Below are positions 22,082 to 25,658 of a DNA stretch of 37,258 bases, in pieces (position 1 is the first letter of the stretch; the number at the start of each line of letters is the position of its first letter). The position numbers and the translations under genes are program-made. The DNA comes from Hyperthermus sp. (GTDB lineage Archaea > Thermoproteota > Thermoprotei_A > Sulfolobales > Pyrodictiaceae): the NCBI GenBank assembly GCA_003978665.1, contig QNYQ01000012.1:1-37258 (forward strand). The letters are read 5' to 3'. The notes under the pieces are model-generated. The model had not been told where the DNA came from. It searched no databases and saw nothing but the letters and a program-made list of their open reading frames with translations.

Positions 22082-22597
22082 TTATTTTCCTATAAACTCC
22101 ACCAATTCCTTAATGCAGTCTAGAGAGTCTTCAAGCAGTCTTCGGAGGTCCTCTCTGCGAGTGAAAACACACATACTGGGAGGCATGGCGATCGGGTCTA
22201 GGCTACTACCTCTCCTACAGTACTTCACTAGCAGGCGCTGCCTCCGCCACTCTCCCCATAGGACTGCGTTTCGCCTCTTACACTCGTAGAGGAATAAGTA
22301 CTGGCCGCTGGGAGTCTTCACTGCATGCAGCTTATCGCGGAGATGTGGCCTAGCTACTTTGTGGATGACTGCCTTAAATTCTACCGTATAATCTATGCTG
22401 TATTTCTCTAGAAGCTCTTTCACGTATTCAAACGCTCTTGGTGTAGCCTTTACAAGGAGCCTCCTTTGGTGCTCGTCAAAGTCGACTATTGTGGCCTTCT
22501 CCTCAAGTTTACTTATAACAGTTGCCATAGCGTATTTTACGTGTATCGTGGCCGTGAATGCTATATAGGGGTATAGGCCTTCAGGCTTCTTCACCAT
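22082..22597 (-). CDS. Hypothetical protein, 171 aa
   Basis: Not recognised. ATG 22597 is used, with GGTGG 4 nt upstream. The N-terminal part (FTATIHVKYAMATVISKLEE, RRLLVKATPRAFEYVKELLEKYSID) looks like a small alpha/beta domain, possibly ferredoxin-like. The C-terminal part is basic with four Cys (YECKRRN, KYCRRG, SMCVFTRR, LDCIKEL), which might bind metal or nucleic acid. The gene lies between alba2 and the Lhr helicase, on the same strand as both, and 33 nt downstream of a candidate C/D-box RNA that may be cut from its leader. Confidence 0.6.
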   Translation of the reverse strand: MVKKPEGLYPYIAFTATIHVKYAMATVISKLEEKATIVDFDEHQRRLLVKATPRAFEYVKELLEKYSIDYTVEFKAVIHKVARPHLRDKLHAVKTPSGQYLFLYECKRRNAVLWGEWRRQRLLVKYCRRGSSLDPIAMPPSMCVFTRREDLRRLLEDSLDCIKELVEFIGK

Positions 22598-22630
22598 GGG
22601 CCACCAGTAGGGACTGAGCAGGTTTCCTCG

Positions 22631-22691
22631 TCAGCCGGGGATAACCTTGTCATCCCCGCTTGTCTAGGTCGTGAACGGGCTTTTTCATCAT
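22631..22691 (-). ncRNA. Candidate C/D-box guide RNA targeting 23S rRNA PTC
   Basis: Minus strand, in order: C box ATGATGA (22691-22685); a first spacer with a poor D'-like CTAG (22667-22664); C'-like ATGACAA (22653-22647); a guide of exactly 12 nt, GGTTATCCCCGG (22646-22635); and D box CTGA (22634-22631). The 11 guide bases next to the D box are complementary to CCGGGGAUAAC, the universally conserved sequence in domain V of 23S rRNA. By the D+5 rule the target would be the third G of GGGG (E. coli G2446). Weak points: D' is not canonical, the C-C' spacing is long, and no clear terminal stem flanks C and D. Transcribed toward the gene at 22597. Confidence 0.5.
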
Positions 22692-22796
22692 GGTTTATGC
22701 ATGGTAATTGTAGGGGTTCTGGCATGGTGGCTCTGTAACACGGACCTTCATCACATGTTTCAGAGTCGTGGCTTTCTTCACTGCCCAGTTCCCAGG

Positions 22797-25658
22797 CTAA
22801 AATACCGGGTTATTCATTTGGATTTTCTGGATGTATGCCGCCGCGTTCAGTATGAGATAGGGTACTATGCTCCTTGGCACGTTCGTGTATCTGGGGGCTG
22901 CTCCATTATAGTAACCTGTAAGCGGGACCACTTTAAGTTCATGTATCTCCTTGAACGGTATCTGATCTATGACAGCTTGGGGGTTGGAGATTATTTCATC
23001 GAGCCTTATTATGGCGTGGATCAAGCTGCCTGCAGAGTTCTTAGCAAGGATCATGTAGAGGGAGTCCAGCGAGAGTGGCTTAAAGGATGACATGAACTCT
23101 TCAGATGATGCTATAGCTTCCGCATCTTCCACAAGCCCCCAGCGGAGCTCTCCCGTATCCGTGTCTATGAAGTAGAATACTCTTTTTACAGAGCCTGGCT
23201 TCATCATCGACTTGAGCTTGCTCTCGATTATCGTTTCGGGCAAGTTTAATGCATCAGCCAGCTCCTCAACCGTAAAGGCCATTCCACGAAGGATGTCTGC
23301 AAGCATCTCTTCCACATTACCGAGCCAGAGTCTTTCGGGCGCGCTCTCAGTTATCGATCTAGCATAGAAGGACACCTTTGTATTACTCTTCTCCACACGT
23401 ATCTTACCCAGCTTTAGCAGCTCAATGATCTCCCAGGCAGTATCTGGGTCGAAGTAGCCTTCTATAGTCTGTCTTAACGCCTCCTGGTAGGGCAGTGTAT
23501 TGTCTGATCTAAGCTTCTGTGTGACACCGAAGACTAGTTGGATGTTGTGTGCCGTCTCAACTATGTAGGGTGAGCGCTTAGCGGCCTCTAGAGCTGCTTC
23601 ATAGAAGGTTTCCCTATCCATGTTCTTTAGTAGGTCTATAGCGTCGAAACCGTTAACGTTTACCATGCTGAACCCATAGTGTGTTATCCTCGTGTAAGCG
23701 TTGCTATTGTAGCGGTACGCATACAGCATGGCCACGTATGCTAGGGTTCTTATAGCCTTTATGGGAGCTATCATTACGTATATTTTCTCATTACCCATGT
23801 ACTCTACTATGATCCTATCCATGGACGGCTGGGGATACCGGTATCTCCTAGCCTCCTTTACAAGTTCTTGGAGCTTGCGTGAAGCTCCATCACTCATTAT
23901 AACGTTAGATGGCATTGAAACTAAGCCGGCGTGTAGCTCCTGGATTACACGTTTAATCTCATCCAATACTATCGGTGAGGCTTCGGGGCCCCGGCCACGC
24001 CAGAATGGTACCACAGCGCTCTCCTGCGCTGCCTCAACTACAAGCACTTTGTTGGTATGCTCATCTATGCTGAGTACTTGCCAGTTTCTGCCACCAAGCC
24101 TTATGGTTTGCCCAACCCGCAGTATTTGTATCACATAGTCGGAGTCGAGCTCGCCTACTAGTCTCCCATCCACACTCCTAACCACATAGTTCTTCTTCTC
24201 ACCCATTGTGGTAAAGAACTCGGAGAAGCTCTTTACCCACCAACTGTAAGCGCTGTCGCCTGGATTAAATCTCCAAATCCTGTAGAACTGGGCGCCTATG
24301 CTTAGGGTACCATCACTGTCGACCTTAACCATCTTCATTGCTTGAAGATACTCTATTAGCTTATCGAACGTGCCTCTATCAAGGTCTCTGAAATAGTACA
24401 CGTTACGTAGAATGCTGTATGCCTCCTCTATCGTATGCCCCCCAGTGAGGGCCATCCCCAGTATAGCCCTGGCAGCCATGTCGAGAGGTGCCTTGGGTAG
24501 TGCTGGAGGCTCTACCCTTCCTTGGACAGCAAGTCTGGCTTCAGCTATAGCCTCCAGGAGCTCGGTCTCGTCGGTAGCTATTATCACTCCTCTTATAGTT
24601 CCATGCAAGCTATGGCCGGAGCGGCCAAGTCTTTGCAGCAGTGATGCTACTTGACCCGTAGGCCTAAACAAGATGACTTTTCTAGCATAGCCTATGTCTA
24701 TTCCAAGTTCTAGGGTCTTGGTTGCTATTATCATGTCGAGTTCTCCCGCCTTAGCACTAGCCTCTATCCTCTGCCTCTCCTCTGCTGAGATAGATGCATG
24801 ATGCACGACGACACCCTTCACTCCCATCTTCTCTATTTCACGGTGCAGGCTCTCGGCTACATGCTTTGAGTTGACAAAGACTATTGTAAGAGGCTCCATG
24901 TGTTCTAGCAGCTTCTCTGCAGCCCTCTTCCAGAACCCTGTCGAAGAAGAGTCGACATAGTCGATGACTATGCTAAGCTCTTTCCGCGCATCTACGGTTA
25001 TCACACTTAGCTTTCTCTTAGAGCTGCCCGTAAACGCCTGCGCCGCTATCTCGGGGTTGCCTATTGTTGCTGAAAGCAGTATTAATTGGAAGTCACCTGC
25101 CAGTCTTCTCAGACGCTCCAAGAGCACTGAGAGCTGAACCCCTCTCTTGCTACCAACTATTTCGTGTACCTCGTCTATGATGACCCAGCGTAGGTTCCTA
25201 TAGTGTTCACGAAACCTTGAGGCCCAGTCAAGATCTATTTCGAGGCTCTCCGGTGTCGTGACAAGTATGTGAGGTATTCTGCGCAGTCTTCTCGCTCTCT
25301 CAGAGTGGGGCACGTCACCATGCTTCCGCGCTACCCTGAATCCGAGTCTTGTAGCCCACCAGCTTATTCTCTCGTAAAGGTCGTTTATTAGTGCTCTCAG
25401 GGGTGTGATGTAGAGTAGCGATACAGGCTTGGAGTCCTCCTTAACCATCATGGATAGTATGGGGAGTAGGGCGGCTTCTGTCTTACCATAGCCTGTTGGC
25501 GCAACTATTATCACGTTGTCCCCTTGCAGTATGGGCTCTAAAGCTCTCTCCTGCACCGAGGTTAGTCTACTCCATCCACGCTCTCGGATAAGCTCCCTTA
25601 ACCTGGGCTCTAGCACGTCAAGGTAGGGCTGGCTTTCCACGGCTATGCTCGTACTCAT
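22797..25658 (-). CDS. lhr: Lhr-type ATP-dependent helicase
   Basis: SF2 helicase of the archaeal Lhr group, 953 residues. LTSVQERALEPILQGDN is the Q-motif region; Walker A is APTGYGKT (53-60); DEVH is at 162-165; SAT at 196-198; TKTLELGIDIG and QRLGRSGHS are motifs V and VI. After the RecA pair come the winged helix and the Lhr core domains (ILRVGQTIRLGGRNWQVLSID and later segments). Lhr proteins translocate 3'-5' and unwind forked DNA, with roles in repair and recombination. ATG 25658 follows GGGAGG. The final residues overlap nothing. Lies near radA and reverse gyrase, but no operon link is visible. Confidence 0.93.
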   Translation of the reverse strand: MSTSIAVESQPYLDVLEPRLRELIRERGWSRLTSVQERALEPILQGDNVIIVAPTGYGKTEAALLPILSMMVKEDSKPVSLLYITPLRALINDLYERISWWATRLGFRVARKHGDVPHSERARRLRRIPHILVTTPESLEIDLDWASRFREHYRNLRWVIIDEVHEIVGSKRGVQLSVLLERLRRLAGDFQLILLSATIGNPEIAAQAFTGSSKRKLSVITVDARKELSIVIDYVDSSSTGFWKRAAEKLLEHMEPLTIVFVNSKHVAESLHREIEKMGVKGVVVHHASISAEERQRIEASAKAGELDMIIATKTLELGIDIGYARKVILFRPTGQVASLLQRLGRSGHSLHGTIRGVIIATDETELLEAIAEARLAVQGRVEPPALPKAPLDMAARAILGMALTGGHTIEEAYSILRNVYYFRDLDRGTFDKLIEYLQAMKMVKVDSDGTLSIGAQFYRIWRFNPGDSAYSWWVKSFSEFFTTMGEKKNYVVRSVDGRLVGELDSDYVIQILRVGQTIRLGGRNWQVLSIDEHTNKVLVVEAAQESAVVPFWRGRGPEASPIVLDEIKRVIQELHAGLVSMPSNVIMSDGASRKLQELVKEARRYRYPQPSMDRIIVEYMGNEKIYVMIAPIKAIRTLAYVAMLYAYRYNSNAYTRITHYGFSMVNVNGFDAIDLLKNMDRETFYEAALEAAKRSPYIVETAHNIQLVFGVTQKLRSDNTLPYQEALRQTIEGYFDPDTAWEIIELLKLGKIRVEKSNTKVSFYARSITESAPERLWLGNVEEMLADILRGMAFTVEELADALNLPETIIESKLKSMMKPGSVKRVFYFIDTDTGELRWGLVEDAEAIASSEEFMSSFKPLSLDSLYMILAKNSAGSLIHAIIRLDEIISNPQAVIDQIPFKEIHELKVVPLTGYYNGAAPRYTNVPRSIVPYLILNAAAYIQKIQMNNPVF

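Follow-up and report, generated by a model that had tools for sequence, protein, structure and literature searches.

An intergenic gap in a contig of Hyperthermus, a hyperthermophilic archaeon of the Pyrodictiaceae, raises two questions: (i) whether it encodes a C/D box guide sRNA and (ii) which ribosomal nucleotide such an RNA would address. The window, meaning the whole 37,258-nt stretch of DNA that was analyzed, carries on its minus strand a series of boxes that an earlier note, made from the sequence alone, had read as a guide aimed at the peptidyl-transferase loop of 23S rRNA. We consider it very probable (roughly 93%, for class and target jointly) that this locus is an archaeal C/D guide sRNA for a predicted Gm2446 (E. 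coli numbering). The features are listed in Table 1.

Table 1. Features of the candidate sRNA locus and its surroundings, in window coordinates.
Feature	Position	Strand	Remarks
Probable C/D guide sRNA gene, 61 nt from C to D box	22631..22691	-	Sequence, simulation, recurrence in relatives
C box ATGATGA	22685..22691	-	7/7 to RUGAUGA
C' box ATGACAA	22647..22653	-	5/7; exactly 12 nt upstream of D box
12-nt C'-to-D interval GGTTATCCCCGG	22635..22646	-	Minus-strand reading
D guide GTTATCCCCGG	22635..22645	-	11 Watson-Crick pairs with 23S CCGGGGAUAAC
D box CTGA	22631..22634	-	Minus-strand reading
D' guide region	22664..22684	-	D' box uncertain; not conserved in relatives
D' box option ACGA	22669-22672	-	12 nt after C box (usual interval)
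D' box option CTAG	22664-22667	-	Degenerate
Intergenic region with sRNA, 199 nt	22598..22796	-	Between Lhr-type helicase gene and 171-aa ORF
Lhr-type helicase gene	22797-25658	-	Pfam DEAD/Helicase_C/WH_Lhr
171-aa ORF	22082-22597	-	Without Pfam match
Second, tandem C/D sRNA candidate	22730..22785	-	Just upstream of first sRNA; Rfam below gathering

The minus-strand order is CATAAACC-ATGATGA-AAAAGCCCGTTCACGACCTAGACAAGCGGGG-ATGACAA-GGTTATCCCCGG-CTGA-CGAGG, which bears out the claim that a C box, a C'-like box, a 12-nt guide, and a D box CTGA follow one another. The C box sits close to the 5' end of the element and the D box (CUGA) close to its 3' end, with 57 nt from the start of the former to the latter. 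Of the internal boxes, C' is in its conserved place, and D' is as poor as had been described, ACGA and CTAG being the only options and both degenerate. By inspection, the locus has no canonical terminal stem (AAAC on the 5' side versus CGAGG on the 3' side). Stems are present in genomes G010 and G001 and in Methanothermococcus, and the same module occurs without one in others (e.g., G138 and G146); judged from these sequences, the stem is not kept across the whole group that carries the module. No tRNA was detected in the window (ARAGORN), and the 171-aa ORF had no relatives in the genome contigs searched. In the covariance search that the earlier note had proposed, nothing in the window reached the Rfam gathering threshold, and C/D families were matched only below it, the best at this locus being sR11 (E=0.96).

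Addressing the second question, we found that the reverse complement of GTTATCCCCGG is identical to CCGGGGATAAC in the 23S rRNA of three Pyrodictiaceae genera, with the target at position 2649 in G007, 2632 in G014, and 2629 in G012. The 11 pairs begin at position 1 beside the D box, and the fifth guide base from the box lies opposite the equivalent of E. coli G2446, the predicted methylation site. Thus both the complementarity of the eleven box-abutting bases and their register are as first proposed. In E. coli, the AUAAC stretch (GGAUAAC) has A2451 as its second A; from this placement and the count of five bases from the D box, the predicted target is G2446, five nucleotides from catalytic A2451. 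The alignment of the guide to 23S held as an exact match. The target sequence came from other Pyrodictiaceae genera, because no 23S was found in the window's own MAG (61% complete), which lacks a 16S as well. The 23S gene of a congener (L021, G004:C100:800-4000) was rejected as a source of the target; it is bacterial-like, with a CAGGCTGGTCTC context, and probably represents contamination.

By coincidence, intergenic or coding sequence could resemble the series of C box, C' box, guide, and D box. The boxes are short, and isolated matches to TTATCCCCGGCTGA do occur in unrelated sequence (bacteria, L071, L073). However, the window has 192 CTGA sites, and a box-abutting rRNA complementarity of at least 10 nt is found at just one of them, the D box of the sRNA; the full C/C'/D grammar is found only at this locus. 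In simulated windows (first-order Markov versions of the real one), 11-nt box-abutting rRNA matches arose at 45 of 34,212 CTGA sites (0.13%). The earlier assertion that an accidental match at exactly the D-box position is unlikely therefore holds, both by the null rate per site and by the count of real sites. Together with the evidence from relatives described below, namely empty reversed-pattern controls, C' spacing kept to the nucleotide, and compensatory changes of guide and target, this makes coincidence highly improbable.

We scanned 147 genomes of the order, with reversed patterns as a control. The pattern TGA..TGA..TTATCCCCGG-NTGA was recovered in 20 genomes and GATGA-gap-TTATCCCCGG-NTGA in 14, and neither reversed control gave a match. 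The shorter TTATCCYYGGCTGA alone was recovered in 32 genomes (reversed control, 1), and a few of these matches are coding or chance occurrences without C/C' boxes. Exactly 12 nt before D, a C' box (at least 5/7) is present in 21 of 26 candidates with C/D context, where about 2% would be expected per random site. All 13 Pyrodictiaceae copies examined have such a box there. Four isolated chance or coding matches have neither a C' nor a C box. Matches to TTATCCYYGGCTGA in G103, G135, G115, and G048, and a second copy in G018, were rejected as lacking C/C' boxes, and the counts of good candidates exclude the G046 and G114 matches, which have a different D box. Most genomes of the order gave no guide match with the strict patterns, and looser guide patterns in the genomes without a match yielded mostly background. 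One motif is on JABXKE010000002.1 (Pyrodictium sp. isolate DIMAG01); other matches are labeled Pyrodictiaceae or Pyrolobus. The earlier note had named disappearance of the C and D boxes from close relatives as a refuting observation, and this was not seen: two congeners, G001 and G002, have both boxes, as do other Pyrodictiaceae genera. The guide match was not found in the congeners G003 and G004, an uninformative absence at 67-72% completeness. Conservation covers the guide, C', and D, whereas the flanks and the D' half as a whole vary even within the genus. Rearrangement and drift of such kind are known for archaeal C/D sRNAs (PMC4644070).

The guide and its target change together. In genus g9 of family f2 (G020, G040, G074), the guide is TTATCCTCGG, and the 23S of G040, a genome that also carries this guide, reads CCGAGGATAAC, as does that of G030 from another f2 genus. 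In genus g33 of family f5 (G060, G068), the guide is TTATCCTTGG; four f5 genomes, family members other than the guide-bearing MAGs, have CCAAGGATAAC in their 23S. Specifically, the guide has CCUCGG where 23S has CCGAGG and CCUUGG where 23S has CCAAGG; in the other clades for which both are known, the guide is TTATCCCCGG and the 23S CCGGGGATAAC. In G100, U replaces the first C and a wobble pair is retained. The varying positions are 2444-2445, and the predicted methylated G2446 is invariant. On these comparisons, we regard the covariation as the decisive evidence for guide function, and it refutes chance for the guide family. More broadly, such covariation offers a sequence-only route to guide targets in uncultured archaea.

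The same evidence bears on a second possible target. The D guide also matches 16S CGGGGAUAACC over 11 nt, one base off the box, so a true C/D sRNA could act on this site (near 16S position 126) and not on the peptidyl-transferase loop. In the 16S of G007 it forms 11 contiguous Watson-Crick pairs, and the duplex energies are equal (-21.0 for 16S versus -20.8 for 23S). However, the base adjoining the D box is mismatched, and the 11th pair needs a G where many Pyrodictiaceae guides have C or T. Moreover, the 16S site differs among families and the guide follows 23S: in f5 the guide (CCUUGG) fits 23S CCAAGG but not the f5 16S CGGGGACAAC. The covariation favors 23S over the 11-nt near-match, and we judge a functional 16S target improbable.

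Another reading concerns the fold. The guide can pair with the C' flank of its own RNA (CGGGGAU/AUCCCCG, 7 bp, window 22634-22658, minus strand), and the minimum-energy fold uses this pairing, as might be expected of a structured cis element in the leader of the 171-aa ORF that is not a trans-acting guide. However, families f2, f5, f6, and f11 lack the hairpin or have a reduced form of it and yet retain guide:23S complementarity; a cis element of this kind thus seems very unlikely. If the locus is a guide sRNA, the pairing may hide the guide in the free RNA until proteins bind. A shorter pairing of guide and C' flank, GGGAU/AUCCC, is common among Pyrodictiaceae copies.

The D' half is less clear. 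With CTAG as D', there is a 9-nt match to 16S UCGUGAACG or one of 7-8 nt to 23S GUCGUGA; with ACGA, 11 contiguous pairs (2 of them G-U) are possible with 16S GGGCGGGCUUU. The 7-nt GUCGUGA match reported earlier for the first guide region is real, but it is weak and shorter than both 16S matches. None of the three target candidates was accepted, since they are not conserved and all match at a level close to chance. The D' guide of the window sRNA may be an orphan or species-specific guide.

Clear D' guides were read elsewhere, of the ATCGAGGTA type, in G007, G013, G088, G044, and G022. They fit 23S UACCUCGAU or nearly so, with C2498 at N+5, and among clades with known 23S they occur where 23S has ACCUC, not ACAUC. 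In E. coli, C2498 is methylated by a protein enzyme, RlmM (PMC11542601). At loci L035, L036, L023, L024, L041, and L042 (the same five genomes and G028, whose 23S was not found), the D' guide points to 23S UACCUCGAU. As a separate observation, the D' halves of the four f11 loci (L037-L040; G138, G146, G120, G100) read GGTCGATGTGA or GGTCGATGGGA and mirror 23S UCACAUCGACC (G100) versus UCCCAUCGACC (G146), with 11 pairs each. This would be a second covarying guide, though its complementarity extends into the D' box position.

Returning to the first question, the window sRNA shares with archaeal C/D box sRNAs (Rfam sR, snoPyro_CD; PMC4644070, PMC7994747) the box order, the 61-nt size, the 12-nt interval, and the N+5 register. 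Like them, it is intergenic, shortly downstream of a protein gene, and its target is in domain V near the peptidyl-transferase center, where sites cluster. It differs from them in having no Rfam gathering match, a weak D' box, and no canonical terminal stem. By analogy with these RNAs, the locus would be transcribed, and the C/D and C'/D' motifs of the transcript would be bound by L7Ae, Nop5, and fibrillarin to form an RNP. The 11-12 nt between C' and D would then anneal to 23S CCGGGGAUAAC, which lies at the base of the peptidyl-transferase loop; the nucleotide opposite the fifth guide base, the counterpart of E. coli G2446 (Gm2815 in yeast), would be methylated at its 2'-OH by fibrillarin. 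Neither fibrillarin above the cut-off nor Nop5 was found in the window's own 61%-complete MAG; fibrillarin is present in the congeners G002, G003, and G004. By its sequence features, the new sRNA belongs to a known kind of RNA, and its interest lies chiefly in the covariation and in a site shared with eukaryotic snoR38.

To look beyond the order, we scanned all GTDB species genomes with the pattern GATGA-gap-TTATCCCCGG-CTGA. Archaea account for 16 of the 46 matches, versus about 6% expected, the archaeal share of genomes being an estimate. Under this assumption the enrichment has P ~5e-9, or 1e-4 without Pyrodictiaceae. Methanothermococcus (four contigs), a nanoarchaeon (L096), and a hodarchaeon (L139) show textbook C/D anatomy, with the guide between a C box and CTGA, then a second guide between a C' box and another CTGA, and a terminal stem. 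The guide is upstream of D' in Methanothermococcus and L096, and probably also in L139. The 23S of all three contains the target, with one G-U pair in Hodarchaeota. The Methanothermococcus and nanoarchaeal RNAs (L123, L124, L126, L131, L096) have the same guide within a textbook C/D anatomy; they differ from the window sRNA in the D' position of the guide, a clear terminal stem, and another second guide. Sub-threshold Rfam matches to snoR38 were obtained at L096 1724-1793 (E 0.0065), L124 5159-5239 (E 0.0092), and L126 3199-3263 (minus strand, E 0.023). The hodarchaeal locus (L139 2430-2450 and flanks, JAUUVJ010000385.1) is an Asgard C/D-like RNA that has the same guide, probably at the D' position; a GTTGG/CCAAC hairpin separates D' from C', and the terminal stem is CACT/AGTG.

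The eukaryotic counterpart is snoR38/SNORD1/yeast snR38 (RF00213). Yeast A2820 corresponds to E. coli A2451; because of this and because the guides align, yeast G2815 corresponds to E. coli G2446. The target nucleotide and register are the same, with the RF00213 guide reading CAGUUAUCCCUGU-CUGA versus GUUAUCCCCGG in the window. However, the snoR38 guide precedes D', whereas that of the window sRNA precedes D. RF00213 had no gathering match (45 bits) in the window and none at the locus up to E=10. Eukaryotes methylate, with a guide RNA of their own, the same nucleotide adjoining the catalytic center of the ribosome that is the predicted target here. In yeast, snR38 directs Gm2815 (PMC5199042), and the human counterpart is Gm4392, or Gm4362 in older numbering (PMC3511168, PMC11542601). 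A 2012 comparison listed sR12 as the only archaeal guide whose site corresponds to a conserved eukaryotic site, with a few weak cases proposed by others (PMC3511168). In a 2024 compilation, the yeast Gm2815 row has no archaeal entry in its P. abyssi column (PMC11542601, Table 2). In PMC4644070, the main text names the G2446 site neither by its E. coli number nor by its estimated alignment number (about 2720 from the offsets of that paper); the supplementary target lists of the archaeal surveys may have it.

The guide itself does not distinguish homology from convergence with snoR38, since any guide to this site must mirror a near-universal rRNA sequence. Guided methylation of G2446 could be ancestral to archaea and eukaryotes, with snoR38 descended from an archaeal sRNA of this family, survival in Thermoproteota, Methanococcales, DPANN, and Hodarchaeota, and a shift of the guide between the D and D' halves; we hold this scenario tentatively and consider it rather unlikely. 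A predicted G2446 guide family in several archaeal groups, supported by covariation of guide and rRNA, makes the age of the modification testable.

The same gap holds a second C/D candidate (Table 1), with C box AGTGAAGA, D' CTGA, C' GTGATGA, D CAGA, and a GGGC/GCC stem. Its weak Rfam matches, sR17 (E=0.0039) and sR5 (E=0.0044), are both below gathering. The D guide GGTCCGTGTTA abuts CAGA and is complementary over 11 nt to 23S UAACACGGACC (about position 1550), read in two Pyrodictiaceae genera (G012, G014). With two C/D candidates so close together, the case for an sRNA locus in this small gap becomes stronger. Separately, some 23S genes are interrupted after the GGGGGUGCAGCA / GGGUGGGGCU stretch (L149-L153 in G040, G022, and G074; L016; L003), which suggests rRNA introns near the peptidyl-transferase region in these genes.
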